DNA of 64,000 nt, taken from Mycolicibacterium sp. MU0050 (GTDB taxonomy: Bacteria; Actinomycetota; Actinomycetes; Mycobacteriales; Mycobacteriaceae). The position numbers and the translations under genes are program-made. How positions within the stretch are numbered: position 1 is the first letter of the stretch; every line of letters starts with the position of its first letter. The notes beneath the pieces are model-generated. The model made no database searches. It saw nothing but the letters and a program-made list of their open reading frames with translations, and had not been told where the DNA came from. The stretch lies in the NCBI RefSeq assembly GCF_963378085.1, contig NZ_OY726395.1, positions 2,728,001 through 2,792,000 of the forward strand. The letters are read 5' to 3'. Positions 4,073-36,941 of the stretch are shown here, one piece after another.

Positions 4073-5794
4073 CTATTCGTTGCTCCCGGACTTGCTCTTG
4101 CTCTTCGAATCGCTACCGCTGTCCGACTTGCCGCTGTCCGACTTGCCACTGTCCGACTTGCCGCTCTCGGACTTGTCGCTGCCGGACTTGCTGCCCGCCG
4201 ACTTGCTGTCGGACGTGCTGCCGTCCGACTTGGCGGCACCGGAGTCACCGTTCTCGGACTTGCTCTCCGCGGAGTCGCCGCCCGACTTGGTGTTACCCGA
4301 CGTGCGACTGTCCGACCTGCTCGACTCACCCTTGCCGAAGCGGTCGGCGAGCTTGTTCCGGATCGACCGGAACTTGCTGGATCGGCTCTTCTCGACGGCG
4401 CTCTTGGCCGATTCGGCCGCCGGATCCGCCTGATCCGCCGACGCAGGCAGGTCCTCGACAGCGGTGTCCGTCTCGGCCGGGGCGGGCTCGGCCGGGGTCG
4501 TCTCGGTGTCGGTCGTGGGTGTGGTCTGGACGGCCTCCTCCCCCGCCTCGACCTTGTCCACCGGCGTGGTCTCGGCCGGAACCGTTTCGCCGTCGGTCGC
4601 CGGAGTGGTCTCCACCACCTCGGTCTCGTCGGCCTCGATCACCTTCTCGACAGCGTCCTCGGTGGCCTTGTCGGCTTCCGCCTCCGGCGACAACGCGTCG
4701 AGATCCAGGCTCAGCAGCTTGCTCGCCCGGGTCAGGCTCGTCGAGATCGCCTCCGGCAGCGCAGATTCCGGTGCCACGGTGAGTGCCATGGTCTCCGGCA
4801 CGGCCGGGAAGCGCGGATTGATCAGCGCCCAGGTGATCTCCCGCGGCAGGGTGAACGCGAAGTACTCCAGCGTGCCGCGGTTGGTGAGCACACCGGCCCA
4901 GTCCCACGGCTGGTCGCTCACCCGCGGGTTGTAGCCGTTGAGGTAGGCGTTGAGCGTCTTGGGCGCGATGTCCAACAGCTCGCCGATCGCATTCTCCCAG
5001 TCGTTCGCCTTCACGGCCGCGGCGATGTCGTCGAGGCCCTCGGTGAACTGGAAGGCCGCGGTGACGATGGGCCCCAGGGTGAACAGGGTGAAGTCGGTGA
5101 CCGCACCGCCTTGTCCGTCCGGGCCGACCAGCATGGCGTCCCAGACGTTGGCCAGCCGGTGGGCCCCGATGGTTTCGAGGATCTCACTGCCGATCGTGAG
5201 TTCCTTCAGCAGCGGCCAGGCTCCGCTGCCGAGGCTCCACAGGAAGTACTGGTTGAATTCGGCGAAGGCGTTGTTGAACTGCTGGTTCTGGAGGTAGCCG
5301 GCGACGTTCTCGAGCATCCCGTTGAAGTCGGGAAGATCATCAGGGACGTTCGGGTCCTGTTCCTGGCTCGCCTCGATCGCGGCCTGGATCCGCTCGGCGT
5401 AGCTGGGCAGGTTGTTGAGCACCTGCTGCCAACCCGCGGTGTTGGTCAGCACACCGGCGAACTCCTCCAGCACCACCGGGACCGCGCCGGCCAGCTCCTG
5501 CGCCAGCTGCGGGTACAGGGTACTCATCTCGTTCAGGCCGTACTGAACGTGACCGAAGGCGGTGTTGAGGGTGTTCTGCCAGGTCTGCAGCGGGTTGGCG
5601 GCGGCGGCCAGCTGGACATCGCGGGCCTGCGCCGTCGCCAGGGCGGGCACCGCCGCCGTCGCCGGGCTGGCCGTGATCGCCGACGCACCGACGAGTGCGA
5701 CGCCGACGACCAGCGCCCGCTTACGCAACGGTGTGGAACGTGGAGACTCCGCCGGGGCCGCTGGCCCCGGCTGAGCAGAAGGTTCGAACGCCAT
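4073..5794 (-). CDS. Exported protein, GjpA-porin-like, with Ser/Lys/Asp-rich C-terminal tail
   Basis: 573 residues. A basic N-terminus (RKR near residue 25), a hydrophobic stretch (ALVVGVALVGASAITA) and an Ala-x-Ala cleavage region (SPATAAV, about residue 46) make a signal peptide. Residues about 55-330 are helical and rich in Gln, Asn, Trp and Phe (for example LQTWQNTLNTAFGHVQYG). They recall the mycobacterial proteins often named outer membrane porin GjpA; this is an impression from pattern, not an alignment. Residues about 370-450 are Thr/Glu/Pro rich, and the last ~110 residues are almost only Ser, Lys, Asp, Gly, with SGKSD units encoded by 15-base repeats. AGGAG stands 5 bases before the ATG. 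A strong hairpin follows the stop. Likely cell-envelope or secreted; function unproven. Confidence 0.55.
   Translation of the reverse strand: MAFEPSAQPGPAAPAESPRSTPLRKRALVVGVALVGASAITASPATAAVPALATAQARDVQLAAAANPLQTWQNTLNTAFGHVQYGLNEMSTLYPQLAQELAGAVPVVLEEFAGVLTNTAGWQQVLNNLPSYAERIQAAIEASQEQDPNVPDDLPDFNGMLENVAGYLQNQQFNNAFAEFNQYFLWSLGSGAWPLLKELTIGSEILETIGAHRLANVWDAMLVGPDGQGGAVTDFTLFTLGPIVTAAFQFTEGLDDIAAAVKANDWENAIGELLDIAPKTLNAYLNGYNPRVSDQPWDWAGVLTNRGTLEYFAFTLPREITWALINPRFPAVPETMALTVAPESALPEAISTSLTRASKLLSLDLDALSPEAEADKATEDAVEKVIEADETEVVETTPATDGETVPAETTPVDKVEAGEEAVQTTPTTDTETTPAEPAPAETDTAVEDLPASADQADPAAESAKSAVEKSRSSKFRSIRNKLADRFGKGESSRSDSRTSGNTKSGGDSAESKSENGDSGAAKSDGSTSDSKSAGSKSGSDKSESGKSDSGKSDSGKSDSGSDSKSKSKSGSNE
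4116..4175. repeat. 15-bp tandem repeat, four units, coding for SGKSD-type repeats
   Basis: Four adjacent 15-base units (4116-4130, 4131-4145, 4146-4160, 4161-4175) share the core ccgctgtccgacttg with 0-3 changes. They lie in the reading frame of the exported protein on the minus strand and encode repeated Lys-Ser-Asp-Ser/Glu-Gly units. Such in-frame arrays can expand or contract without frameshift. Confidence 0.85.
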
Positions 5795-6165: not shown

Positions 6166-8376
6166 TTACTCGATGCGGGCCGGCCGTATCCTCGGGTCGT
6201 AGTACTCGTTGACGGCACGGAAGATGACCGTCTCTCCGTCCGACACCACCAGGGTGAACTTCGGTGATCGGTGCAGCGCGTCCTGGACGATCTCCACGGC
6301 GTCGGGGCGGTAGTCGCCGTAATAGCGCAGGGCGCGATTGGACTGCTTGCTGAAGATGACGTAGGTCTCGTACACGCCATTGGGTATCTCGTTGATCAGC
6401 ATGTGCAGGTCGTGCTCGGAGGGAAAGTTCGCCTTGAGTTCCGGCAGGCGCGGATCCCGCCCATCCCACATGTCATAGGAGATCGGGTGGTCGTAATAGG
6501 AATTGAAGCGCGTCACGTCGACGTAGTCGGAGTTGACCCGGGTCGGCATGCCGCCCAGGCGCAACATGACATACCGCGTGCGCAACTCGGTGCCGGTCGT
6601 CAACTCGTTCATCAGCTCGATCTGCGCGGGAGTCTGGTAAACCAGCGGCCATAGCGCCACGTAACCGTGCAGCCCGGCCACCGACGCGGCGGTCAGCCCC
6701 AGCACGGCGGCTCCCCTGGCCGCGAAAGTGCGTGCGCCCGCTGCGGTTTTCGTCTTCCAGACCCCGTCGAGGGCCCCGACCACCGCCGGCGCGATCAGAA
6801 GCGACGTCCCCAGCAGCGCGTAGAGATACACCCGGAAGATCGCCTCGCCACCGTAGCTCTGCCCGAACAGCAGACCGAAGGACGAAAACGCGAGTACCGC
6901 GAGCGTGAACACCGGGCGCCGCCGGCGCCACCGCCACGCCGCGCACGCCAGCGCCGTGAGGATCACGACGGCCGACAGGCCACGCACCACCGCCGAGGTG
7001 AAATCCTTGGCCGGTAGCCCCGAGGTCACCACGTTGCTGGTCGCGTTGCTGACCGGGCTGCCGCCGGAGAGCAACCCGTAGGGCAGTACGGCTTCGAGGT
7101 TCATCAGCAGGTAGGCCAACACGATCACGCCCATTGCCGGGGCGATCCACCAGGGCCGGGCCCGCTTGGTCACGCACAGCACGGCCGCCACGCCCACAGC
7201 CCAGAACGGGGTGAGCTGATGGGTGGGAACAGTGGCCGCGTACACCAGGACCGCAAGCACGCCGCTGGCGGTGCTGCGCGGCGACGCCAGCAAGAGCACG
7301 ATCATCCCGAATGCCAACGCCAACGACCAGGCCTGCGGCGAGAAGTAGTCCTGGCCAACCCAGTTGGTGACCTCGAGCAGGAACGCGGCGGTCACGGCGG
7401 TGCGGCGGGAGAACCCGAGTACCCGCGCCGCACTGTACCCGATCACCGCCAGGACCACATGTATGACCGGCGCGAAAAGATGTGCCATGTCGATCGGCGC
7501 GACACCGGTGACCGCGCTGAACCATGCGGACGTCACGAAGAAGGACGCCCACTGGGCGTAGATGTCGGTGCCGTCAGGTGGGATCAGACCGTAGTCCATG
7601 ATGTAGTCGACGACGGCCAGGTGCTTGTAGGTCCAGTCGTAGAGCGGGACCTCCGTGGCCGCGAACGTGGTCACGCGGGACACGACGATCGCCGCGACGA
7701 TCGCCACCGCGCCCGAGAGCACCTGGCGGTAGCGCACCGCGACCAGCAATGCCCAGGCGCACAACGCAATACCGACCGCCAACATCGGGCCGGTGCCGGA
7801 GAACAGCAGGCCGTAGTAGCTGGCGTCTGTTCCGGGCAGGCCCGGTACCGCGATCAGCCACAGCGCCACCGCCAACCCGCTGAGAGACATCGAGAGATAC
7901 CGGGCCACAAGGGAGTCCGGGCCGGCGGACACCACCGTCTGCCAGCGCAGCGGGCGCGGCGCGGTCGAGATGTCGGCGCCGTGGCGGTAATACCAGTAGG
8001 CGCTGCTGAGCCCGACGGCCACCACCTGGACCCACAGCATGTCGTGTGGGCTCCACCGGTAGGACCACATCGCCACGATCGAGACCAGCGTGGTGATCGT
8101 CATACCCAGCACCGGCACCGTCGCCAACCGGGCCCGCGGCGGGATGCGCACCCACGTCAGGACCGCCGCTCCGGGACCCACCGCGATGAACACCAGCAGA
8201 CAGACGGCACGCAGCACCGGCGGCAGACCCGTCAACGCCAGCGCGCCGGCCGCGGCCCCCACCACCGCGAGATCAACCTGACGGATGTTGGGCACCAGGA
8301 CCCGGCCCTGCCGCACTGCGCCCGGCGAAACCGCGCGGCGGGGCCGTGTCCGTGGGGGATCGATGGTCGCGGTCAT
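6166..8376 (-). CDS. Large polytopic membrane protein, GT-C-like, of the glycan operon
   Basis: 736 residues from the ATG at 8376, chosen because it overlaps the upstream glycosyltransferase stop (ATGA); an in-frame extension to 8559 looks non-coding. After a short basic N-terminus there are roughly 14-16 hydrophobic helices up to about residue 580, then a soluble C-terminal domain of about 150 residues (from NSDYVDVTRFNSYYDHP). The loop YDWTYKHLAVVDYIMDYG carries Asp, His and Tyr residues of the kind found in the first periplasmic loop of GT-C glycosyltransferases and polysaccharide polymerases. I infer a lipid-linked-sugar-dependent transferase or polymerase acting outside the membrane. Last gene of a six-gene operon. 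A purely structural role is possible. Confidence 0.6.
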   Translation of the reverse strand: MTATIDPPRTRPRRAVSPGAVRQGRVLVPNIRQVDLAVVGAAAGALALTGLPPVLRAVCLLVFIAVGPGAAVLTWVRIPPRARLATVPVLGMTITTLVSIVAMWSYRWSPHDMLWVQVVAVGLSSAYWYYRHGADISTAPRPLRWQTVVSAGPDSLVARYLSMSLSGLAVALWLIAVPGLPGTDASYYGLLFSGTGPMLAVGIALCAWALLVAVRYRQVLSGAVAIVAAIVVSRVTTFAATEVPLYDWTYKHLAVVDYIMDYGLIPPDGTDIYAQWASFFVTSAWFSAVTGVAPIDMAHLFAPVIHVVLAVIGYSAARVLGFSRRTAVTAAFLLEVTNWVGQDYFSPQAWSLALAFGMIVLLLASPRSTASGVLAVLVYAATVPTHQLTPFWAVGVAAVLCVTKRARPWWIAPAMGVIVLAYLLMNLEAVLPYGLLSGGSPVSNATSNVVTSGLPAKDFTSAVVRGLSAVVILTALACAAWRWRRRRPVFTLAVLAFSSFGLLFGQSYGGEAIFRVYLYALLGTSLLIAPAVVGALDGVWKTKTAAGARTFAARGAAVLGLTAASVAGLHGYVALWPLVYQTPAQIELMNELTTGTELRTRYVMLRLGGMPTRVNSDYVDVTRFNSYYDHPISYDMWDGRDPRLPELKANFPSEHDLHMLINEIPNGVYETYVIFSKQSNRALRYYGDYRPDAVEIVQDALHRSPKFTLVVSDGETVIFRAVNEYYDPRIRPARIE

Positions 8377-9644
8377 GACACCGGAACCGGAGCCACCGGC
8401 CGCGCGCGACGCCGCCGGCCGCGCCACAACGCGCGCGGGCCGCCGAGGACCGCAAGAACTTCCGTACGTCCCACCGACGTCGGCACCTCGCAGCGCAGAT
8501 CGGCGCTCGGTTGCGCCACGATGGCGCCGTAATCGGCTCCGGTGCGCAGCGACAGCCACAGGTGGCGAGAGACGGTCCGGGCCACCAGCCGACGGTGCGT
8601 GCGGTCGAGTCCGACCTTGGTCAGCCAGGCCCCCAGGCCCAGCCCGTAGCCGCGCGCCTGGCTCAGCAGCGCGTCGTTGTCGCTACGGTGCCGGTGCCAG
8701 ACGATGGCCCCCGGTTCGGTCGCCATGGCGTCGCCGGACGTCACCACCCGGAAGAACATGTCGAGGTCCTCGCCACCTTGGGCGGCGGTCCCGGCGCCGA
8801 GGGCTTCGTCGAACCCGCCCAGGTCGAGCACCCGCGCCTTCTTCACCGCGAAATTCGCTCCGGTGCCCAGCCTTCCGACCTGCAGCGGAAACAGCGGGAC
8901 GTCGGGCGGCGGCATCGCCATGCTGACCACGCGGGGCGCCAGGCTGCCGGCCCAGGAGACCCGCTTCTCGAAATAGGCCTGCGCGGCGGTGCGCAGTTCA
9001 CCGCTGGGGACCAGCCCTGCCACGCACGAGACCGCGCTGTCGCGGCCGAATCCGCGAGCTATCGCGCGCAACCAGTACCGATCGACGACGACGTCGTCGT
9101 CAGTGAAGGCGATCAGTTCGTGGCGTGCGGCCTGCACGCCGGCGTTGCGCGCCGTCGACAAACCGGGGACCGGTTCGGGGACACAGCGCACCCGCGGATC
9201 GCCGAGTCGCTCGACCACCCGCGCGGTGGCATCGGTGCGGGCCGCGTTGTCCACCACCACGACCTCGAAATCCGGATAGTCCAGAAGCAGGATCGACACC
9301 AACGCGTCGGCCAGCGCATCGGCGCGGTCCCGGGTGCACACCACCACCGAGATCGGCGGCAACTCGGCGGCTTCCGGCTCGGCGTGCGCTCTCGTGGCCG
9401 GCAGCCGGACACGCACCCGCCCGTCGACGATCGGCGCATCGACGAACGTGATCGGCCGGAACCGGTGACGCAGCAGTACGCGCGCATGCCGATACCCCTC
9501 GGCGTGGCGCGGGACCAACTCGACCCATCCGCCCGAATCCGGTGCGAACGCGTCGATGTCGAGCATCCCGATCCACCGGGCCTCCGGCCACGTCGGGTGC
9601 CCGTGCGGAGGCATCACCGGATCCAGCGTGACTGCGGCGGTCAC
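8373..9644 (-). CDS. Family 2 glycosyltransferase with N-terminal extension
   Basis: 423 residues from the GTG at 9644, which overlaps the GH16 gene stop (GTGA). The first ~110 residues (with EARWIGMLDIDAFAPDSGG) form an extra domain seen in some actinobacterial glycosyltransferases. A GT-A fold follows: PPISVVVCTRDRADALADAL for nucleotide binding, VVVVDN, STARNAG and the metal-binding FTDDDVVVD. A later stretch, AAQGGEDLDMFFRV, supplies the ED-type catalytic motif of family 2. No membrane helix is obvious, so it is probably a cytoplasmic or peripheral enzyme that adds a sugar to a lipid-linked acceptor. Donor and acceptor cannot be read from sequence. Confidence 0.85.
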   Translation of the reverse strand: MTAAVTLDPVMPPHGHPTWPEARWIGMLDIDAFAPDSGGWVELVPRHAEGYRHARVLLRHRFRPITFVDAPIVDGRVRVRLPATRAHAEPEAAELPPISVVVCTRDRADALADALVSILLLDYPDFEVVVVDNAARTDATARVVERLGDPRVRCVPEPVPGLSTARNAGVQAARHELIAFTDDDVVVDRYWLRAIARGFGRDSAVSCVAGLVPSGELRTAAQAYFEKRVSWAGSLAPRVVSMAMPPPDVPLFPLQVGRLGTGANFAVKKARVLDLGGFDEALGAGTAAQGGEDLDMFFRVVTSGDAMATEPGAIVWHRHRSDNDALLSQARGYGLGLGAWLTKVGLDRTHRRLVARTVSRHLWLSLRTGADYGAIVAQPSADLRCEVPTSVGRTEVLAVLGGPRALWRGRRRRARPVAPVPVS

Positions 9645-10465: not shown

Positions 10466-11121
10466 CGGGACTCCCCGACCAGCTGCCGATCTTCGAGGTT
10501 CGGACGGCGCCGCATCCCGACGCTGCCGAGCGCGATGACCGCGATCAGGATGCCGTAGATGGTCATGCGCTGCGCGCCGCCCATCCCGACCACATCGACG
10601 TGCCCGAAAGTGGCGAAGTACCCCAGCAGGCCGACGACGCCCGCCACCACGGCGACCACCCGTCGGTCGGTCGACAGCGGCGACGCCGATTCCATGGCGA
10701 TGAACAGCGCGGCCACCGAACCCAAGGTCAAGAAGATCCCCATCAAGGTCTGATTCCAGGAGTAGTCCACGTTCTGGGTGATCACCCCGCTGCCGGCCAA
10801 CGCGGCCCCGGCGATCCCCAACAGCAGGGCATGGCTGCGCTGCGTCACCCGCTGGACGACGAAACTCGCGGCGACGAGCACGATGGCCGAACCCGTCACC
10901 ACGGTGGCGATGTTCATCACCGGGTACAACGCGCTGCAGGGCCAATTGCCTTCGGGGCCACAGAAAGCGACGCCGAGGTGCCCGGGAAGGTCTTCCCGGT
11001 AGCCGTAGTGGCCGCGCCAGGTTGCCGAGACCACCCATTCGGCCGGAAAGTAGAGCAGTGGCAGCAGCGCCACCCATCCCGACACCCGGGGGTCGCCCAG
11101 CCACCCCACGATCCTCGACAT
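10462..11121 (-). CDS. DUF998-type integral membrane protein
   Basis: 219 residues from the ATG at 11121, whose first base overlaps the stop of the preceding glycosyltransferase (TGATG). Six hydrophobic helices are apparent. The loop CGPEGNWPCSALYPVMN, after the second charged segment, matches the pattern I associate with DUF998 proteins. No catalytic motif is visible. Between a glycosyltransferase and a glucanase, and translationally coupled to both, it may assist glycan assembly or export, but no biochemical role is known to me for the family. Confidence 0.7.
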   Translation of the reverse strand: MSRIVGWLGDPRVSGWVALLPLLYFPAEWVVSATWRGHYGYREDLPGHLGVAFCGPEGNWPCSALYPVMNIATVVTGSAIVLVAASFVVQRVTQRSHALLLGIAGAALAGSGVITQNVDYSWNQTLMGIFLTLGSVAALFIAMESASPLSTDRRVVAVVAGVVGLLGYFATFGHVDVVGMGGAQRMTIYGILIAVIALGSVGMRRRPNLEDRQLVGESR

Positions 11122-12083
11122 CACAGGTCCCTTTCCAGCCGCGACGTCGCCGCCAGGCCCGCGACGTACCCGACACCAGTCACGACGAGTCCCGCCGTCA
11201 GCGCCAGCATCCGGGTCGGCCGCCGACGGGCGTCCCACAGTCCCAGCGGCAGTGTTCGAGTCACATAGCAGCGCTCGCTCGCCAACGAGGACTGCCGCCC
11301 GCACAATCGGGTCAACACCGCCTTGCTGCGCCCCTCGTGGTAACAGCGGTGCACGAAGTACGACACCGTCGTCCGCTCCTGCGGCACCACGTGCGCCACG
11401 TCGAAGGACGTCGCCCGGACGACCCTCGCCTCGGGATCGCGCCGAGTCAGGGCGATGCCCATCATCGTCTCCTCACAACCGGCCGGCACCGTGTCGATGC
11501 GTCCGAGTTGTTCGGAGAAGCCACCGATCTCGTGCAGTGCCCGTCGCCGCACGGCCATCGCGGCGCCGATCGGGTTGCGGATGGCGGCCCCGTCCGAGGG
11601 CAGTCCGCGGTAGTCGCAGCCCACCACCCAACCGAATTCCGGTGGGAACCAGCGCGGCCCGTGACCGTCGACCCATTCCGGATGCACCGCTCCGCCCAGC
11701 GCGGTGACGCCCGGATCCGCGAAGCACCGCCGGACGCCGTCGAGGGCGCTCGGCCCCGGCACCGCGTCGTCGTCCAGGAAAACCACGACCTCCGCGCGCG
11801 CGGCCTCCAGTCCCGTGTTGCGGGCGCCGGAGAGGCCCCGCCCGAAACCGTTCTCTACCACCGTGACCCGACGGTCGTCGTGGGCGGCCGCCAAGCGGCG
11901 ATACATGGCGGGGTTGCCGTCCACGACAATGATCAACTCGTCGGCGCCGCTCAGCTGCGCCAATGTCGCGGTCACCGCCCGCGCCAGCGTGTGTCGACGT
12001 TGTTCGGTGTAACAGCAGATCACCACGCTCAGCGACACCACCGCCGGCCGGGTGGTGACCACGTCGTCCGCCTCTGCGGTCAT
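11121..12083 (-). CDS. Family 2 glycosyltransferase
   Basis: 320 residues from the ATG at 12083, selected because it overlaps the upstream stop (ATGA); a GTG at 12089 is an alternative. GT-A motifs appear in order: SLSVVICCYTEQRRHTLARA, ADELIIVVDGNP, LSGARNTGLEAA and the metal-binding VVFLDDDAVPG near residue 110. GCEETMMGI is the acidic catalytic stretch. One hydrophobic segment near the C-terminus (MLALTAGLVVTGVGYVAGLA) may anchor it to the membrane. Probably transfers a hexose to a growing lipid-linked saccharide. It is similar in type to, but clearly distinct from, the other two glycosyltransferases of the operon. Confidence 0.87.
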   Translation of the reverse strand: MTAEADDVVTTRPAVVSLSVVICCYTEQRRHTLARAVTATLAQLSGADELIIVVDGNPAMYRRLAAAHDDRRVTVVENGFGRGLSGARNTGLEAARAEVVVFLDDDAVPGPSALDGVRRCFADPGVTALGGAVHPEWVDGHGPRWFPPEFGWVVGCDYRGLPSDGAAIRNPIGAAMAVRRRALHEIGGFSEQLGRIDTVPAGCEETMMGIALTRRDPEARVVRATSFDVAHVVPQERTTVSYFVHRCYHEGRSKAVLTRLCGRQSSLASERCYVTRTLPLGLWDARRRPTRMLALTAGLVVTGVGYVAGLAATSRLERDL

Positions 12084-12973
12084 CGCCACGAACTCGCGGG
12101 GATCCCCGAAGGTGACGCCCGGTGTTCCCGTCGTTCCCGTCCGATCGTGCGCAGCACCCGAAAGCCATCGGTGACGGCATTGAGGTTGCTGCGGCCGTAG
12201 AGGCGCTTCTCCTCGAAGCTGCCCACCTCACGGATGGACCATCCGTTGCGGGCGGCACGCACGTTGATCACGGTCTCGATCTCGAAACCGTCGCCCCACT
12301 GCGGCTCGGTGGCCTGGGTCGAAGGAAGGTCCAACCAGGCCAGGTTGCGCCGCCAGAAAGCGTTGTAGCCGTAGCACAGATCGCTGAACCCGGTGTCGAA
12401 GATCTGGTTGACGAGCCAGTTCAGGCCCTTGTTGCCGAACCGTCGAAGATGGGTGATGTCAGCGCTGCCCCCGCCCTGGGAGAAGCGGCTGCCCTTGGCC
12501 AGGTCCGCGCCGCCGAGCAGCGCCTCGACGAACTTCGGTATCTCCGCGGGGTCCGTCGAGCCGTCCCCGTCGATCATCACGATGATGTCGCCGGTCGCCG
12601 CCTCGAAGCCACAGGCCAGAGCGTTCCCCTTGCCGCTGCGGGTCTGCGAGATCACGGTGGCCGTCGGCCACAGCGTGCGTGCGACATCGATGGTGCCGTC
12701 CTCGGATCCACCGTCGACGACGACGAGTTCGTCGATCGGGGGCAGCCGTTCGGCGACGTGGGGCAGGTTGCGGGCCTCGTTGCGGACCGGCAGGACGACG
12801 GTCACGGTGGGCCTCTCCGCCTCGCCACGTCCGTCGTCGCGGGGCAGGTCGCGGCCCGAGTCGGCGTCCAGCATCGCCGTGGGTTGAGCCCACGACGCGC
12901 CCTCGAAACGCCGCAGGTTGTCGCCGTTTCGGGGCTCTGCGTGCACTCCCACGCCGGGGACAATCTCAGTCAC
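12080..12973 (-). CDS. Family 2 glycosyltransferase, dolichol/polyprenyl-phosphate-sugar-synthase type
   Basis: 297 residues from a GTG at 12973; first gene of the six-gene operon. After a variable N-terminus of about 55 residues come TVTVVLPVRNEARNLP, DELVVVDGGSEDGT, GKGNALACGFEAA and the metal-binding MIDGDGSTDP, an arrangement typical of enzymes that move a sugar from a nucleotide donor to polyprenyl phosphate, or of processive GT2 enzymes. No C-terminal membrane helices of the GtrB kind are seen. It may start the lipid-linked intermediate. Its promoter must lie in the 323-base region shared with the divergent flippase-NRPS fusion. Confidence 0.87.
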   Translation of the reverse strand: MTEIVPGVGVHAEPRNGDNLRRFEGASWAQPTAMLDADSGRDLPRDDGRGEAERPTVTVVLPVRNEARNLPHVAERLPPIDELVVVDGGSEDGTIDVARTLWPTATVISQTRSGKGNALACGFEAATGDIIVMIDGDGSTDPAEIPKFVEALLGGADLAKGSRFSQGGGSADITHLRRFGNKGLNWLVNQIFDTGFSDLCYGYNAFWRRNLAWLDLPSTQATEPQWGDGFEIETVINVRAARNGWSIREVGSFEEKRLYGRSNLNAVTDGFRVLRTIGRERREHRASPSGIPASSWR

Positions 12974-13296: not shown

Positions 13297-16200
13297 ATGC
13301 CCTCCTCAGGCCAGTCCGACGCGCGAAGTGGCCGACAAATAGCCGTTGCGCCAACCGGATTGGCCGTCGCCGTCGACACGGACGACCGACCGCGCACCGG
13401 ACCGCGGGCCGCCGAGCGCGGGTCGGCGCGGCAGCCCGTCGAGCACCCGAAACTGCAGGGCCGCGCGCTGGGTATCGACATCGCCGCAGTGATGACGTCG
13501 AGCGCCGCGACCGGGGTGCTCGGCTTCGCCTTCTGGACGGTGGCGGCCCGCGGCTACGACACCGCCGAGGTCGGCCGCGCCTCCGCGATCATCTCTTCGG
13601 CGACCTTCATCGCAATTCTGGCAAACTTCAGCCTCGGCAGTCTGTACGAGCGCTTCCTCCCCCTCGCGGGCGGTCTGACCCAGCGACTGGTACGGCAGGG
13701 CACCCTGTTCGCCGCGACGGTGGGGCTGGTATTCGGCGCGGCGTTTCTGATCCTCGGTCCCCGCGTCCAGCTCTTCCCGACTTGGTATGAGGCGGCGCTG
13801 TTTCCGGCCTTCGTCGCGGTGCTCGCCATCTATGCGTTGCAGGACCAGGTACTGATCGGACTGGGCCGAGCTCGCACGATCGCCACCAAGAACATCAGTC
13901 AGTCGGTCACCAAGTTGATCGCGGTGGCGGCGCTGATCCCGCTGGCGACCGGGGCGGCCATCGTGGGTTCCTGGGTGGTCCCGGCCGCCGCGATCACCGC
14001 GATCATCTCGGTGGTGGTGATCCGCCGCGAAGCCGGCCGGCGCAGCGGACCCTCGACCCTGCCACCGACCCGCGAGGTGTTCCAGTTCTTCGCCAGCTCC
14101 TATGTCATCAGCGCCGTGACCGTCAGCGTGCCGCTGTTGGTGCCGCTGATCGTGGTGGCGCAGCTGGGCACCGAGATGAACGCGTATTTCTCGATGTGCT
14201 GGTTGGTCATCCACACACTCGGGGTGCTCATCGGGGCCACCGCCGCCCCCTTCATCGCCACCGCCTCCACGCCCGGAGCCGACCTTCGTTCTTGCACTGC
14301 ACGTTTCGTGCTGATGTGCGGCGGTGCGGCGGTGGCCGGCTCAGTGGTGCTGATCGCCACCGGACCGCTGATCCTCGGCATCCTCGGCCCGGGTTACGCC
14401 GAGCACGGGACCACGCTGATCCGGATGATGGCGCTCACCCTGCCGTCGGTGGCGCTGATGACGGTCTACACCGCGCTGGCGCGGCTGCGCCGGCGGCTGC
14501 GCCTGGCCGTCACCGCGCAGATCCTGCTCGGAACCACCGTGGTCCTCGGGGTCATCTTCACCACGCCGCGCTGGGGTCTCAACGCAGTCGGCTACAGCTA
14601 CCTGGCCGCCGAGCTGCTCTGCACCATCATCCTGGTCGGCCCGGTCGTCGCCCAGCTACGCAAGATCGCCGGCACACCGCACGAACAGAGCCCCGCGACG
14701 ACGGCGGCCCCGGGCGCCGATCGACCGGAACCGCCGCCGGTCGCCGACATCGAGTACGCCTCGGTCACCGAGCGCTTCGGCGAGGTGGCGCGCGCCCACC
14801 CCGAGCGCGTGGCGCTGCGCACGACAGCGGGGGACCTCACCTACGGTGCGCTGCACACCGCCGCGACGCGGTGGACGGCGGCACTGACCGAAAGCGACGC
14901 CACCCGTAGGGTTTTGCCCCTCGTCGGCGACCTCACCCCGCAGACGGCGGCGGTGATCCTCGGCAGCTTCGCGGCCGGCGTCCCCCTGGTGCCGCTGGAT
15001 CCCGCCCTGCCACCCGATCGCACGCGCGCGATCCTCGACACCCTGACCAAGCACGGATATCGCTACGACCAGATCGCGACCGACACCGCCGAAGCACCGA
15101 CCGCTGAGGACGTCCCGACGCGGCCACCCGCGCCGACCATCCGGTCGGTGACCAGCATCCAGTTCACCTCGGGCTCCTCCGGCGAACCCAAGGCGGTCCT
15201 GCACACCCACGGCACCTGGCTCAGCGACTGGATTCTGCATCGCGATCGCTTCGGCATCCTCGCCGGCCGGAAGATCGCGCTGTGCATGCCGGTGAGCTTC
15301 GCCGCCGGCCTGAATGTGCTGGTCGGCTCGCTGTTGTCCGGCGCGGAGGTGATCGCCGTCGACCCCCGCCGGCAACCGCCGGACGTCGTCCTCGACCGGC
15401 TCGACGGCGCCGACATCGTGATGTGCACCCCGTCTTTCCTGCAATCGGTGAGCGGCTACGCCGACGGCCGCACCCTCGACGGGGTGCAGCGCATCGTGAC
15501 CACCGGGGAACCGGTGTACAGCAACGTATTCCGACAAGCCCGCGCGCTCGCTCCCAATGCGGTCCTGACCAACTGGGCCGGCTCGTCGGAAACGCTCGGC
15601 ATCGCGCACTTTGATGTCTGGCCCACCGACGACGTGCCGGCCGGCGGGATCCCGGCCGGCATACCGGTCCCCCACAAGCACCTCGCCATCGACGAGCGGG
15701 GCCGCCTCACGGTGACCTCGCGGTACCTCGCCGCCGGGTATCTCGACCCCTCCGGCGCCCAGACCGAGTTCGTCGAGAACCCGGACGGCACCGCGACGTT
15801 CATCACCAGCGACCGCGCCCGCCTCACCGAGGACGGCGTCCTGGTGGTGCTGGGCCGCGGCGATGCCGCTGTCAAGATTCGCGGTTACCTGGTCGAACCC
15901 GCCGAGGTCGAGGCCGCCCTGATCGATTGTCCCGGCATCCGGGAGGCTGTCGTGGTGGCCGACATGGCACGCGATACCCCCGTGCTGATCGGTTACGTCG
16001 CACCCGAACCCGGCGTACGAACCCCCGCGGTCGCCGACATCCGCGCCCATCTGCACACCCGCCTGCCGGACTGGATGGTGCCCACCCACGTCGTGTTGCT
16101 GGAGTCGTTGCCCCGCAACGAGCGCGGCAAGGTCGACCGGCGGGCGCTGCCGGCACCGACCCGCGGCCCGATCGAGGCGCCGGCACCGGGAGTGGAATCC

Positions 16201-17187
16201 GAGATCGCCGCGGAGTGGGCCCGGGTGCTACGCCTGGACGAGGTCGGACGCAACGAGAACCTGTATGCGCTGGGCGGGGATTCGCTGTCCGCACTGCAAC
16301 TGGTCACGACGCTCGGGCGCCGGTACTGCGTCGACCTGACGCCCTCGGACCTCGCCGCGGCCCCCACCGTGGCCCTGCTCGCCGAGGTGGTCGAGGCGCG
16401 CCGGGACGGACTGACCCCGGCGCGGCAGACGCGGCTTGCCCCCACCACGGTCGTGTTGCGCGCACCGACCGCCCGGTCCCGAAACATCCTGTTCTGCTTC
16501 GCCGGAGCGGGCGCTTCCGCGTTGTCGTTCGCGCCGTTGGCCGAGCGCGCCGCGGACACCACCGCGGTGGTCGCCTTCCAGCCGCAAGGATTGGCCAACC
16601 GCGCCATACCGGACTGGTCGGTCGACCGCGCGGCGGCACGCCATCTCAAGGATCTGCTGGCCGTGCAACCCACCGGACCTTACTGGCTCGCGGGCCATTC
16701 GCTGGGCGCGTTCATCGCGATCGAGGTCGCCAATCACCTACGGGCGCGGGGACACGACGTCGAGCTGGTCACCATGCTGGATCCGATCCTGCCGCCGAAA
16801 ACGGTGCGGGCCGCGCGGGTGACGCTGCCCGAGGCACGCTCGACCCTGCTCGATCAGACGCCCGCGGCCCGCGGTGCGCTGTGGAAGCGTCGCCTCGGCC
16901 TGCCGCTGGCCGGACTCCTCGACGGCGGCCCACGCCAGAAGGAAGAGGCCCTGCGCGAGGTCGGCGTGCGCGTGGCCCATCTGCACCGGCCCCGGCCCTA
17001 CTCCGGCCCGACATTGTTGGTGCTCAGCAGCTTCAACGTCGACGACGAACGCATCTGGGCGCAACTACTGCCCGGCGAGGTGACGCTGCGGCGGATCCCC
17101 TGCGACCACAACTCGATGATCCGCGAACCGCACATCGGCCGGGTCGTCGAACTCATGGAGTCGATGGGAACGCCGGAGTCGGTGTGA
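13297..17187 (+). CDS. Polysaccharide flippase fused to NRPS-like A-T-TE module
   Basis: 1,296 residues in one uninterrupted frame. Residues ~60-465 form about 12 membrane helices of a Wzx/MATE-type lipid-linked oligosaccharide flippase. Residues ~486-960 are an adenylation domain: TSGSSGEPK (624-632), NWAGSSET (759-766), GRGD (853-856) and the catalytic Lys945 in NERGKVDRRAL. A carrier domain follows with LGGDSLSALQL, phosphopantetheine site Ser996. Residues ~1065-1290 are a type I thioesterase with GHSLG (Ser1135), Asp1162 and His1271. There is no condensation domain. Ala669 stands where amino-acid-activating domains have the alpha-amino-binding Asp. The soluble part would sit on the cytoplasmic side. 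I infer activation of a small acid and its transfer to a lipid-linked glycan during export; the TE could be the acyltransferase. Divergent from the glycan operon. Confidence 0.9.
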   Translation: MPSSGQSDARSGRQIAVAPTGLAVAVDTDDRPRTGPRAAERGSARQPVEHPKLQGRALGIDIAAVMTSSAATGVLGFAFWTVAARGYDTAEVGRASAIISSATFIAILANFSLGSLYERFLPLAGGLTQRLVRQGTLFAATVGLVFGAAFLILGPRVQLFPTWYEAALFPAFVAVLAIYALQDQVLIGLGRARTIATKNISQSVTKLIAVAALIPLATGAAIVGSWVVPAAAITAIISVVVIRREAGRRSGPSTLPPTREVFQFFASSYVISAVTVSVPLLVPLIVVAQLGTEMNAYFSMCWLVIHTLGVLIGATAAPFIATASTPGADLRSCTARFVLMCGGAAVAGSVVLIATGPLILGILGPGYAEHGTTLIRMMALTLPSVALMTVYTALARLRRRLRLAVTAQILLGTTVVLGVIFTTPRWGLNAVGYSYLAAELLCTIILVGPVVAQLRKIAGTPHEQSPATTAAPGADRPEPPPVADIEYASVTERFGEVARAHPERVALRTTAGDLTYGALHTAATRWTAALTESDATRRVLPLVGDLTPQTAAVILGSFAAGVPLVPLDPALPPDRTRAILDTLTKHGYRYDQIATDTAEAPTAEDVPTRPPAPTIRSVTSIQFTSGSSGEPKAVLHTHGTWLSDWILHRDRFGILAGRKIALCMPVSFAAGLNVLVGSLLSGAEVIAVDPRRQPPDVVLDRLDGADIVMCTPSFLQSVSGYADGRTLDGVQRIVTTGEPVYSNVFRQARALAPNAVLTNWAGSSETLGIAHFDVWPTDDVPAGGIPAGIPVPHKHLAIDERGRLTVTSRYLAAGYLDPSGAQTEFVENPDGTATFITSDRARLTEDGVLVVLGRGDAAVKIRGYLVEPAEVEAALIDCPGIREAVVVADMARDTPVLIGYVAPEPGVRTPAVADIRAHLHTRLPDWMVPTHVVLLESLPRNERGKVDRRALPAPTRGPIEAPAPGVESEIAAEWARVLRLDEVGRNENLYALGGDSLSALQLVTTLGRRYCVDLTPSDLAAAPTVALLAEVVEARRDGLTPARQTRLAPTTVVLRAPTARSRNILFCFAGAGASALSFAPLAERAADTTAVVAFQPQGLANRAIPDWSVDRAAARHLKDLLAVQPTGPYWLAGHSLGAFIAIEVANHLRARGHDVELVTMLDPILPPKTVRAARVTLPEARSTLLDQTPAARGALWKRRLGLPLAGLLDGGPRQKEEALREVGVRVAHLHRPRPYSGPTLLVLSSFNVDDERIWAQLLPGEVTLRRIPCDHNSMIREPHIGRVVELMESMGTPESV

Positions 17188-17214: not shown

Positions 17215-18228
17215 CTAGTCGCCGCGCGGTTCGAGTCGCACCTCGGCGAGCACCCCGTGGTGGTCGGAGCCGGGCAGGTCGACCCGGACGAAGGTCAGCG
17301 GGGTGGCGCCGCGGGTGAGGATCCGGTCGATGGCCAACGCCGGCGGATGCCACCTGTCAGCGGGATAGGTCGCCACGATCCCCGCACCGAGATGCTCCGC
17401 GGCATCGAGCAATTCCCCGTCTGCGGTGGTCCCCGCGGACACCAAGTCCCGGTAACGCCGATGGTCGTAGGTGGAGTTGAAGTCCGCGCCCACGATCAGG
17501 GGCCTCGACTCCGCGGCGAACACGGCGCCGATCCGTTCCAGATCCGTTGCCCACCGCCACGCCGGCTCAGGGTACGGCGGCACCGGATGCAGGGCGTACA
17601 CCGCAACGGGTTCCGCCCCGGGCACCGTCATCACGGCGCGTAGGTTGTTGTGCACCAATTCCGGCAGCACCGTCGGCTCGGTGAGCGGGTGCCGCGCATA
17701 GATGCCGGCACCAGATCCGCCCATCTTCGGCTCGAGATGGGCGAACGGCAACAACTCCGCAATGCCCGCCGCCGCCAACCGGCCCACCGCCTCCTCGGTC
17801 AGCTCCGACACGGTCAGCACGTCCACCTGGTTGCGGCGGACCCGCTCCACGAGGGCGTCCGCGTCCGCCTCACCCAGCCGAATATTGGCCTGCAACAGGG
17901 TGATCGTCGGTGCCTCGGAGGCCACCGACGCGGGCGCTCCGAGGTAGAGCGGAAGTTGGGCGCTCACCCCCGCGGCCGCAACGACCGCGGCCATCGCGGC
18001 CGCCACCCACCAGCGCGCGGCGACCAACAACGCCACCGCCAGCAGTGCACCCAGGATGGCCAGCGGACTGAAGGAAGCCAGCAACGTCACGGTGGTGCTG
18101 ACCGGGCCGAGAAAATGCACCAGGACGCCGACGGCCGCCGCAGCCGCGCACGCCAGCCCCAACCAACCCGCGATCAGATTGGGCCACCGGCGCCTCGTGC
18201 GGGCCGTCCGCACCGCGGAATCGATCAC
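17215..18228 (-). CDS. Membrane-anchored endonuclease/exonuclease/phosphatase (EEP) family protein
   Basis: 337 residues from a GTG at 18228. Three hydrophobic helices fill about residues 18-105, followed by an EEP domain: TLLQANIRLG (metal-binding Asn), VDVLTVSELTEEA (metal-binding Glu), VGADFNSTYDH (Asp-Asn), AIDRILTRG, and the terminal GSDHHGVLAEV with the catalytic Asp-His. The family includes phosphodiesterases, sphingomyelinases and nucleases; the membrane anchor points to an extracytoplasmic phosphoester substrate, perhaps a lipid. It converges on the flippase-NRPS gene with 27 bases between stops. A link with the glycan system is possible, but nothing beyond adjacency shows it. Confidence 0.85.
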   Translation of the reverse strand: MIDSAVRTARTRRRWPNLIAGWLGLACAAAAAVGVLVHFLGPVSTTVTLLASFSPLAILGALLAVALLVAARWWVAAAMAAVVAAAGVSAQLPLYLGAPASVASEAPTITLLQANIRLGEADADALVERVRRNQVDVLTVSELTEEAVGRLAAAGIAELLPFAHLEPKMGGSGAGIYARHPLTEPTVLPELVHNNLRAVMTVPGAEPVAVYALHPVPPYPEPAWRWATDLERIGAVFAAESRPLIVGADFNSTYDHRRYRDLVSAGTTADGELLDAAEHLGAGIVATYPADRWHPPALAIDRILTRGATPLTFVRVDLPGSDHHGVLAEVRLEPRGD

Positions 18229-18259: not shown

Positions 18260-19135
18260 TCACGCGGACAGCGACACTCGATCAGAGTCAGCGACGGCGA
18301 TCACCGGCCGTGCGGCCCGCAGCGCCGCGCGGGCCCGGACGACGGCCGGGGCGCGCCACTGAATGGGCGCCTCGATGCTGATCGGCACGCCGGGCAGCGA
18401 CCGCAACATGGCGACCAGATCGATGGAGCCCTCGCCGGGGAACAGGCGCGCGTTGCGGCCCTGATACTGCAGCTCGTCCAACGAGGTGGGGCGCGGCGAC
18501 GTGCCGTCGCAGATCTGGATGTAGCGGATCCAGTTCGGCGCCAACGCCTGCAGATCGGCAGCCGTGGCGTCGGTGCGGTCGTAATGCAATGCGTCGACGA
18601 GCAGGCCGACCTGCCGTTGCTCGCAGCGGCGCAGGATCGACGCGGCCTCCCGCAGATCGCGGACATCGGTCCACGGCATCGGCTCCAGATTCGGGACGAC
18701 GCCGAAAGTGCCGGCAAACTCCGACAATTCGGCCAGGTTGTCGGCGAGCCGGTGATGATCGGGGTCGTTTCCGGTCACCAACACTTCGCGCGCCCCCAGA
18801 TAGGCGCCGGTCTCGAGGAAGGGGCCGAACTCCTCGCGGACCCGGGTATCCGGGCGGAGCCGCAACACCTCGATGTCCAACAAAGACAGCCCGGTGTCGT
18901 CGAGGCGCTGCCGCGTCTCCCGGATCATCGGGGTGGTGCCGATGCTCGGGTGCCGCGGCTCGGCGTCGGTGGCGGGAATGAGACGCAGCCCGACCGCGTC
19001 GTAGCCGGCCTCCGCCGCGCAGGTGACCATCTGCGGCGGGCTGAACTCCAGCACGGTCAACGGCGCCAGCGAGACCTGTCGGACCGAGGGCCGGCCGGCG
19101 GTGCGCCCCGGTGGGTTACGTCGCAGGAAGTTCAA
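18260..19135 (-). CDS. Sugar phosphate isomerase/epimerase-like TIM-barrel protein
   Basis: 291 residues from a TTG at 19135. The xylose isomerase-like (AP endonuclease 2) barrel is recognised by LAPLTVLEFSPPQMVTCAAE at the start, VGLRL, NLEPMPWTDV with a metal-binding Glu, GLLVDALHYDRT with Asp and His, and ISIEAPIQWRAP at the end. Members isomerise or epimerise sugars, inositols or hydroxy-acids, or dehydrate ketoacids (3-dehydroshikimate dehydratases), so the substrate is open. Cytosolic. It follows the EEP gene start by 31 bases in the same direction, so they may be co-transcribed. Start uncertain, as no ATG is available. Confidence 0.8.
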   Translation of the reverse strand: MNFLRRNPPGRTAGRPSVRQVSLAPLTVLEFSPPQMVTCAAEAGYDAVGLRLIPATDAEPRHPSIGTTPMIRETRQRLDDTGLSLLDIEVLRLRPDTRVREEFGPFLETGAYLGAREVLVTGNDPDHHRLADNLAELSEFAGTFGVVPNLEPMPWTDVRDLREAASILRRCEQRQVGLLVDALHYDRTDATAADLQALAPNWIRYIQICDGTSPRPTSLDELQYQGRNARLFPGEGSIDLVAMLRSLPGVPISIEAPIQWRAPAVVRARAALRAARPVIAVADSDRVSLSA

Positions 19136-34393: not shown

Positions 34394-35447
34394 GATTCCT
34401 CCATCTCATTGGTCCATCTAGGCCATTTAACACCGTTGGCCGGGTACTTCAGCCAGCGACGACGACCGTACCCAGGCTCTCTGACGAAATCTAACCCCAC
34501 CCCCTGGTTACGGCGTCAAATCCCGGCGTCCCGGGCCCCCTCGAATCGGGGCCGCCCGGTGCTGCGCAGCGCCGGTTTCGGCGAGATCGCGCGGGTCGGC
34601 TGCCGTAACCGACTGCATTTCAAGACGTTTCGCCACGTGGAAGCCGTATTTGGTCCACCGGCCGCGCGGCCGGCCCACGTTGTGGGACCCGCGAACGGCG
34701 CCGAAAGAAAAATTTTGGCTGGTCCTGGGGTTTCGGGCGTGTCGGGCACCCCTGGACGTGGGTCGCGCTGCGAAGGCTGCCGGCGGCCGCGACCAGCGCG
34801 AATGCCGGGGGCCTCTGGGACGGAAGGGACGCAAGGGGGAGGTGGTTCGCCCGCGTTCACGTCACCGCTGGCTGATTCGGGGACATCTCGACCCACCGGT
34901 GGGGGTTCGCGAGGTGCTTCGTGGTGACGACTTGCTGACGATGCCCTCTCGCCGCCCGCTCGCCCCCCGAAAGAGTCTCCGACGACCACTGCGACGTCGC
35001 CACCGAAGGACTTAGTCGCACTCCCCCGTCGTCGCGCGGGCGCCAAAGACCGCGGCGTGACGGTGGGCGCGACGGTGCCGTTCACCGGGGTGCCATGCCC
35101 GGCCCGATGACCCGTTGCACACCTGAAAGATGCTGGCGTAGAGGACATCCCGAGAATTGACAAGGGCAGGAGACTTCGGCGAGGCGACCGCTTCCACCAC
35201 GAAGTTCGTTGCCATGGGTACCGGACCGCCGCAGGTCGCGAAGATCCCGGCCATCCTGATCGATCGGTTGGTTTCGCCCACGGCGAGCGCCGACGGTGTG
35301 CGCGGAAAGGCATAGCCGGAAACACCGTAGCAACCAGCGCGCCCCGCCCAGCTCCACAAAACCAGTGCTACTAAGTAAGTGCTTGCTAATGAGGATCCAC
35401 CGCGGCACCATCTGTAATTGCCGGGGATGCGCGACGAAGAGGCGGAG
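34394..35447. other. 1-kb stretch without a convincing gene
   Basis: Open frames exist on both strands but have Arg/Pro/Ser-rich translations with no family resemblance, and I call none of them. M. tuberculosis has PE15/PPE20 in this interval; nothing similar is visible. Two adjacent hairpins lie at 34658-34673 (perfect 16-base GC palindrome) and 34674-34686 (5-base arms), followed by an A+T patch (34703-34718). The mihF promoter must be near 34400-34450, and the last ~100 bases hold the promoter and operator of the broken monooxygenase. A small RNA could be encoded between; no transcript evidence can be read from sequence. Confidence 0.5.
35371..35390. promoter_or_regulatory. Imperfect palindrome, TetR-type operator candidate
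   Basis: A dyad centred between 35380 and 35381 has inner arms AGTAAG/CTTGCT with one mismatch, and 7 of 10 positions pair overall. It lies about 58 bases before the start of the broken monooxygenase, which is followed by a TetR gene, so it is the natural binding site for that repressor. The core differs by one base from the KstR2 pattern AnCAAGnnCTTGnT. Confidence 0.45.
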
Positions 35448-36941
35448 ATGACAGACACCGATCTGACAGTCGACCAACACGCCGTCGAGGTGCTGATTCT
35501 GGGAGCCGGGGTATCCGGCATCGCCGCGGCGATCGGATTGCAGAACACCGGGATCCACGATCTGGTCCTCATCGAGCGCGCGGACGCGGTCGGCGGCACC
35601 TGGCACTTCAACACCTATCCGGGATGCGCGGTGGACATCCCCTCGCACGTGTATTCGTTCTCCTACGCGCTCAAGCCGGACTGGTCCCGGGTGTACGGGA
35701 CGCGGGCCGAACTGCGGGATTACATCGGCCAGGTCGTCGACGACTTCGGCGTGCGAGACAAGATCCGCACCCAGACCGAGGTGCTCGACGCGCGTTGGGA
35801 CTCCGGTCAGGAACGCTAGCACGTGACCACCAACCGCGGCACATACCTCGCACGGTTCTTCGTGATCGCCGCCGGCCCGCTGCACGAGCCGATGATCCCC
35901 GACCTCCCGGGTCGAGACACCTTCAAGGGCAAGGTATTTCACTCCTCGCACTGGCCCACCGACCTCGACCTCACGGGGCGACAGGTGGTGGCGATCGGCA
36001 ACGGCGCGTCCGCCATCCAATTCGTTCCGGCGGTCCAACCCGTGGTCGGCAGGCTCACCATCCTGCAGCGCACCCCGTCGTGGGTCCTACCCAAGCCCGA
36101 TTGGGACATCAGCGAGCGTTCGAAGCGATTCCTCGCGCGGTTCCCGGCATCGATGAAGTTGCTCCGGGCACTGGAGTGGGCCTTGCTGGATCCGCTGGTG
36201 AGCATCTCGCTACGGTCACCACGTTTCGCCGGTTTGCTGAGCCTGGCGGGCCGGCTGCATATTCGCCGGCACATCAAGGACAGCGCACTCCGACGCGCGG
36301 TGACACCGAACTACACCCCCACCTGCAAACGCCTGCTGTTCTCCAACGACTACTTCCCGGCATTGACGGCACCCAACGTCGAGCTGCTCGACTCGCCCGC
36401 CGCCGAGATCCGCGAACATTCCGTGGTTACCGCGGCCGGGTGTGAAATCCCTGCTGACACAATAATTTTCGGGACCGGATTTCACACGCTGCAGCACCAC
36501 CCGGTAGCCCAACGCATCCGCGGCAGATCCGGCGAGACGCTGGCCGAGGTGTGGAAGGGCAACCCGAAGGCGCACATGGGCACCACCATCAACGGTTTCC
36601 CCAACGCATTCATGATGTTCGGCCCCAACGTCGGCACGCTATCCGGCTTCACCATGGCCGAGGCGCAGGCCAATTACCTCGTCGGCGCGATCAAGGCCAC
36701 CAACGCCCTCGGCGTCGCTGCTCTCGACGTGACCGGCGCAGCGCAGGACGCCTTCGTCGCCGCAGCAGACAAGATGCTGAACAAGTCGAGCCTGGCCCTG
36801 GGCGGCTGTGACAGCTACTACTTGGCCGACGGCCACCGACGGGTTTCCCTTGCCTGGCCCGGGTCGATGTACTCACTGACCCGGCGACTTCGCACGTTCG
36901 ACGTGGAGTCCTACGCGCCGGCAACCGCAGCGGCCACGTGA
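35448..36941 (+). pseudogene. Baeyer-Villiger-type monooxygenase interrupted by an in-frame TAG
   Basis: The frame from the ATG at 35448 (MTDTDLTVDQ, with GGCGGAG just upstream) runs to a TAG at 35817-35819, then continues in the same frame to 36941. Read through, it gives about 497 residues, the family's usual length. The first part has the FAD motif GAGVSGIA and GGTWHFNTYPGCAVDIPS; the second has the fingerprint FKGKVFHSSHWP and the NADPH motif AIGNGASAIQ. The residue at the stop is followed by HVTTNRG, where relatives commonly have Trp, so a single TGG to TAG change explains it. No frameshift is seen, so inactivation is recent or the base is a sequencing error. The TetR gene overlaps the end by 4 bases. 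Confidence 0.85.

Follow-up and report, generated by a model that had tools for sequence, protein, structure and literature searches.

Why should a membrane protein of the kind that flips lipid-linked glycans be continuous with an enzyme module of the kind that activates and transfers acids? The question is raised by one gene in a stretch of Mycolicibacterium sp. MU0050 DNA (assembly GCF_963378085.1, contig NZ_OY726395.1, positions 2,728,001 to 2,792,000; these 64,000 nucleotides are called the window here), whose product joins a flippase to a complete module of nonribosomal peptide synthetase (NRPS) type, made of adenylation (A), carrier (T) and thioesterase (TE) domains. The joining of flippase and A-T-TE in one chain is real and conserved. 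An earlier note, made from the letters of the window, had described a continuous frame of 1,296 codons with all catalytic residues present and unlikely to be debris, and on these points it holds up. Pfam models for AMP-binding (residues 496-815), AMP-binding_C (870-945), PP-binding (969-1031) and Thioesterase (1064-1287) each score above the curated cut-off, and the residues by which A-T-TE membership is judged (catalytic lysine of the A domain, carrier serine, and TE serine, aspartate and histidine) are all present. Lys945, Ser996, Ser1135 and Asp1162 are the same in all 73 fused rows (query counted) and in all 50 rows grouped with the unfused proteins; the TE histidine, His1271, is kept in 72 of the 73 and in all 50. 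The frame is open, and third-codon-position GC stays at 0.82-0.93 throughout, junction included (twelve 100-codon blocks, codons 1-1200).

The fusion recurs. A protein search that scored 8,000 candidates returned 1,417 relatives; among the best 120, 72 protein clusters besides the query align over nearly the full length (1,154-1,333 aa, query cover 86-100%, identity 51-82%). Across 248 sampled genomes of the genus, A-T-TE (match at E<=1e-100) is found in 30, 14 with the fused form (three of which carry both forms) and 16 with the unfused form only. A contig scan gave 15 loci, 14 from Mycolicibacterium or Mycobacterium with the fused layout and one from Rhodococcus triatomae with separate genes. 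Since the same layout is met in other genomes, the fusion is neither chance nor sequencing error; together with the steady codon bias over the junction, this recurrence rules out an artefact or frameshift fusion. Debris is ruled out for the MU0050 copy, and some relatives do carry broken copies. Among the 14 fused-layout loci, two are cut by contig ends (L007 and L009) and one, L006, stops early, near residue 1253 in MU0050 numbering, ahead of the TE histidine. The 14 fusion-bearing genomes include G055, whose fused copy (L036 8877-12871) has a frame change inside the TE; an open-framed unfused A-T-TE lies about 9 kb beyond it. In the genus survey, each of 3 of the 14 fused rows was flagged with a single internal stop.

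Gordonia holds both arrangements. Gordonia insulae (G852, protein P0129) carries both a fused frame of 1,405 aa (L217) and a flippase on its own (L216), and five other Gordonia genomes have flippase then A-T-TE as consecutive genes on the same strand. In all five split pairs an ATG or GTG start candidate of A-T-TE overlaps the flippase stop by 4 bases, so the homologues are not always split and unrelated in location, the pattern that the earlier note had named as speaking against a functional fusion. Beyond these genera, seven genome regions were chosen by a flippase match, and four of them include A-T-TE or A-T (G142, G442, G174, G394) while three do not (G355, G411, G399); the G394 region (L083) has A-T without TE, adjoining an Acyl_transf_3 gene. 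Of three genomes chosen instead by an A-T-TE match, R. triatomae and G088 have a flippase in the region and G089 does not. In a tree of 48 A-T-TE rows, fused and split Gordonia rows form one clade (support 99), and 17 of the 18 unfused mycobacterial rows group together in a clade that lies within the fused rows. Fusion may have been gained more than once, or it may have been split and lost.

The membrane part has the features of a Wzx-type flippase. Of the 15 segments that hydropathy finds in the protein, 12 lie between residues 57 and 454 and the other three inside soluble domains. This part has no Pfam match in the MU0050 protein; among homologues, PF01943 matches P0005 at 34.6 bits against a cut-off of 28.2, and P0126 and P0129 fall slightly under it. 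Structures were modelled for the flippase and the TIM barrel (for which see Table 1). The predicted flippase fold is best matched by the lipid III flippase WzxE (12% identity over the structural alignment), and WzxE or MurJ account for nine of the top ten VIA rows; a PDB sequence search with the flippase profile gave no match. The domain thus has the 12-14-helix fold of the MOP superfamily expected of a Wzx protein. The charge pattern predicts that A-T-TE lies on the cytoplasmic side, in agreement with the earlier note. Two related flippases bear other fusions: in G018 the partner is GH16, with a predicted 13th helix in between (L048 7463-9973), and in G262 it is a C-methyltransferase (PF08421/PF13489/PF08484), joined directly (L079 9471-12215). 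An additional helix before GH16, and none before the methyltransferase or A-T-TE, fits a cytoplasmic A-T-TE.

The neighbouring genes (Table 1) are of a glycan-biosynthesis type. In 17 fused loci (contig ends cut L005, L007, L009 and L014), GT2a is kept in 14, GT2b in 15, GH16 in 14, GT2c in 15, protein E in 14, the phosphatase-family protein in 13 and the TIM barrel in 11, bearing out the expectation that the fusion would recur beside GT2 and GH16 genes, and a Wzx flippase is expected to be encoded in such a cluster. GT2a and GT2b show a likeness to AglJ and AglG, enzymes of polyprenyl-phosphate glycans, at scores below the cut-offs. Given the GT2 enzymes, this likeness and the GH16 lipobox, the flippase domain is consistent with a lipid-linked glycan system, and its transport of such a glycan is putative. 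It might instead export a small product of A-T-TE, for example an aryl acid or ester, free or dimerised, in the manner of the MATE pumps of NRPS clusters, with the glycan unmodified. We regard this as quite improbable: flippases of the family that lack A-T-TE adjoin the same GT2 genes (GT2a in 11, GT2b in 11 and GT2c in 10 of 16 fetched loci), and the structural matches noted above are to WzxE and MurJ. The minus-strand genes of the window are packed tightly, with overlapping start and stop candidates. Protein E, without a match in Pfam, NCBIfam or a PDB sequence search, is possibly a polymerase or GT-C enzyme. Elsewhere in the window are a 573-aa secreted-looking protein with a repetitive Ser/Lys/Gly-rich tail and no Pfam match (4073-5794), and a gene that by eye looks like a flavin monooxygenase in two adjacent reading pieces, possibly broken (35418-36941).

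Table 1. Features of the fusion gene and its neighbours, in positions of the window
Feature	Position	Strand	Remarks
Fused flippase-A-T-TE protein	13297..17187	+	ATG 13297 to stop 17187, 1,296 aa
12-helix Wzx/MOP-fold flippase domain (aa 57-454)	13465..14658	+	hydropathy; AlphaFold2 model mf6f74016ffb3, pLDDT 89.1; WzxE best match
Pro/Ala-rich linker (about aa 455-485)	14659..14751	+	without additional helix
Adenylation domain, N and C parts (aa 496-945)	14782..16131	+	pocket letters AANSVTWGIK; Lys945
Carrier (PP-binding) domain	16201..16389	+	Ser996, codon at 16282
Type I thioesterase	16486..17157	+	Ser1135/Asp1162/His1271
GT2a, GT2 glycosyltransferase	12080..12973	-	best NCBIfam model AglJ, 121 bits vs cut-off 325
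GT2b, GT2 glycosyltransferase	11121..12089	-	best NCBIfam model AglG-type glucuronosyltransferase, 166.2 bits vs cut-off 440
Small hydrophobic membrane protein, 219 aa	10462..11121	-	no Pfam match
GH16 lipoprotein, 274 aa	9641..10465	-	LCGC lipobox, by eye
GT2c, GT2 glycosyltransferase	8373..9644	-	GTG start candidate overlapping GH16 stop
Protein E, 736 aa, about 13 hydrophobic segments	6166..8376	-	kept in cluster
Endonuclease/exonuclease/phosphatase-family protein, three N-terminal hydrophobic segments	17215..18228	-	weak VanJ match, 19.1 bits vs cut-off 700
TIM barrel, 3-dehydroshikimate-dehydratase-like (predicted)	18260..19135	-	co-occurs with A-T-TE across genus

Evidence on the acid that is activated comes largely from the TIM barrel. 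With presence set at a threshold of 1e-40, 25 of the 26 genomes bearing it fall among the 30 with A-T-TE (raw Fisher p 2.7e-28, phylogeny ignored). A species-tree test used 80 of the 248 genomes, namely the 30 that carry A-T-TE and 50 that lack it, these 50 being drawn mostly from the top of the pyrR list. Of 7 supported pairs, 4-6 had the TIM barrel moving with A-T-TE and none had it moving against; shared ancestry alone may still account for the link. The protein shares eight of the ten QuiC1/QsuB active-site residues listed in the accessible part of PMC7442255 (Leu136 is replaced by Met and Ser206 by Gly), and the dehydratase residues E134, D165, H168, Q191, R210 and E239 are all present. 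Two further residues, R64 and L97, are kept in it and absent from the paralogues L227 and L229. Against the QuiC model it scores 30.2 bits (cut-off 1,200). These features suggest a protein like 3-dehydroshikimate dehydratase, with turnover of that compound as a prediction. Hydroxybenzoate-type cassettes lie beside unfused A-T-TE at two distant loci (L015 5255-9818 and L074 8283-12664), each with a PobA-subfamily hydroxylase, a gene of the 3-dehydroquinate (DHQ) synthase II family resembling 3-amino-4-hydroxybenzoate (3,4-AHBA) synthase, and an alkanesulfonate-monooxygenase-like flavin enzyme; L015 additionally has an ADH-synthase-subfamily aldolase, and its flavin monooxygenase is a frame separate from A-T-TE. 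The earlier note had named no substrate; the evidence leans toward a hydroxybenzoate as probably the activated acid. Two-domain QuiC-type dehydratase frames of about 500 bits (cut-off 1,200) occur in G541, G013 and three Gordonia genomes; as a substitute for the TIM barrel they are discounted, because a frame of like length is present in the control genome G009, which lacks A-T-TE.

Taken together, these parts suggest a machine that acylates and then flips: hydroxybenzoate would be activated at the inner face of the membrane and esterified to a lipid-linked glycan that the same protein flips. We put this forward tentatively, at a little under an even chance. Starting from 3-dehydroshikimate, the nearby TIM barrel would make protocatechuate (3,4-dihydroxybenzoate) or a closely related hydroxybenzoate, which the A domain would adenylate and the carrier would hold as a thioester. 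In the least certain step, the TE would transfer the acyl group to a hydroxyl of a polyprenyl-linked glycan built by GT2a-c, which the attached flippase would then move outward. Outside, GH16, protein E and the phosphatase-family protein may process the glycan. Fusion would keep modification and export together.

A number of observations, given in this paragraph and the next, weigh against that scheme. On the side of the acid, 5 of the 30 A-T-TE genomes lack the TIM barrel at 1e-40; three of these (G048, G051, G448), and also G281, have no match even at 1e-6, while at 1e-6 weaker relatives appear in three of six control genomes without A-T-TE (G001, G009, G016). The median p of the species-tree test, 0.06, is borderline. 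The six dehydratase residues are found too in L227 and L229, paralogues of unassigned function, and so are not specific for a dehydratase. The fold does not separate dehydratase from isomerase (VIA-align 24.4 for IolI, 24.0 for QuiC1 and 23.6 for Lmo2234, a tie, and 21.4 for AsbF), and the equivalog models for PobA and 3,4-AHBA synthase fall below cut-off in both L015 and L074. The same machine could accordingly carry a non-aromatic acyl group, for example a small hydroxy acid, with the TIM barrel as a sugar isomerase or epimerase making a glycan precursor. Such a role would suit the equal match to IolI, with sugar epimerases close behind, and the two missing QuiC1 residues, six of the eight shared ones being common to the paralogues; nor do the pocket letters of the A domain name a substrate (their numbering we take to be the GrsA positions, placed by motif, a register supported for the 235 region). 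We think it improbable, as the TIM barrel accompanies A-T-TE even in genomes where A-T-TE lies apart from the glycan genes, R64 and L97 set the TIM barrel apart from L227 and L229, and aromatic-pathway genes adjoin the outgroup A-T-TE.

On the side of the acceptor, matches to a flippase, GT2 or protein E are absent from the fetched flanks of all 19 unfused mycobacterial A-T-TE loci, so the module is able to function in the absence of this cluster. No GT2 or protein E match adjoins the fused copy of G. insulae, and fused copies are broken in the relatives described above. The scheme also requires the TE to act as a transferase, and it may instead be a hydrolase. Attachment of the acyl group to the glycan would follow from that step. 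No neighbour family occurs in more than 6 of the 19 unfused loci, and no shared neighbour names an acceptor: a gene without Pfam match, a polyketide synthase (by eye) and the TIM barrel occur in five each, and a GT1-type gene in four (scanned in L038 only). In L038, L039, L110 and L114, where unfused A-T-TE stands next to a GT1-type glycosyltransferase, nearby genes look by eye like the mycobactin genes mbtI and mbtA. A hydrophobic segment precedes the A domain in 38 of 46 unfused mycobacterial rows, as compared with 231 of 2,200 shuffled controls; net charge is higher after it than before it in 24 of the 38, an ambiguous orientation. The flippase might do no more than hold A-T-TE at the membrane; the acceptor acylated there would then be something else, either a lipid or another glycan, and the two activities would be independent. 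This segment speaks for tethering, as does the nesting of the unfused clade among fused rows, since a single anchor may have replaced the flippase. We nevertheless hold it to be unlikely, because most fused loci retain the flippase part together with the glycan genes, and the two genes of the split pair in Gordonia still overlap.

Should acylation before flipping be correct, NRPS-type acyl activation and lipid-linked glycan export would be linked in one chain, with a substrate class that is testable, and bacteria would have a new, carrier-dependent way of acylating glycans ahead of export, one that differs from both Dlt and the membrane acyltransferases. Aromatic decoration of mycobacterial and Gordonia surfaces could affect adhesion, metal binding and permeability. 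In its widest form, which we rate as rather doubtful, environmental mycobacteria and Gordonia would decorate a surface glycan with catechol-type (3,4-dihydroxybenzoyl) esters by means of one polypeptide that loads, esterifies and flips, and the flippase family would be a general platform that takes up tailoring enzymes as fusion partners, A-T-TE in this protein and a C-methyltransferase or GH16 in its relatives. Since Gordonia has both split and fused forms, the coupling can be tested directly.

No report of this fusion, or of an aryl-decorated glycan in these bacteria, was found in the open literature searched (subscription papers lie mostly outside it), and PMC5550956 is, in its accessible part, unrelated to the fusion. 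Single-module NRPS-like A-T-TE proteins have the same domain order and the same catalytic residues; here the module is fused to a flippase, or has one hydrophobic segment ahead of it in most unfused mycobacterial homologues. The TIM barrel is like AsbF, QuiC1 and QsuB in fold and in most of the QuiC1/QsuB active-site residues of the partial source cited above, and differs from them in its two substitutions and in lacking the C-terminal 4-hydroxyphenylpyruvate dioxygenase (HPPD) domain. As in Dlt, an adenylating domain and a carrier stand beside a membrane protein and would modify an envelope polymer. Dlt performs its transfer outside the cell, through DltB/DltD; the fusion protein has a TE, and transfer is proposed before export rather than after. 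Membership in Dlt is ruled out by the low score of the DltA model TIGR01734 (121.9 bits against a cut-off of 559.85) and by the absence of any MBOAT or DltD protein among the 20 window frames around the gene scanned with Pfam, where the one candidate for the transfer is the TE, on the predicted cytoplasmic side. Of the earlier note, then, the fusion, the cytoplasmic side and the GT2/GH16 context stand, and the "one-polypeptide analogue of Dlt chemistry" does not stand as written, the parallel being loose. A precedent for fused synthesis and flipping is MprF/LysX, which has a flippase role and unites an activating or transfer domain with a membrane domain in one polypeptide. LysX is described in the accessible part of PMC2713425 as a two-domain protein. 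The fusion protein differs in its unrelated domains and in being without tRNA chemistry (Pfam finds no aminoacyl-tRNA-dependent synthase domain in it), and its acceptor would be a lipid-linked glycan. Compared with the Wzx and MurJ flippases of the MOP superfamily, what it adds is an NRPS-type A-T-TE at a C-terminus predicted to be cytoplasmic.

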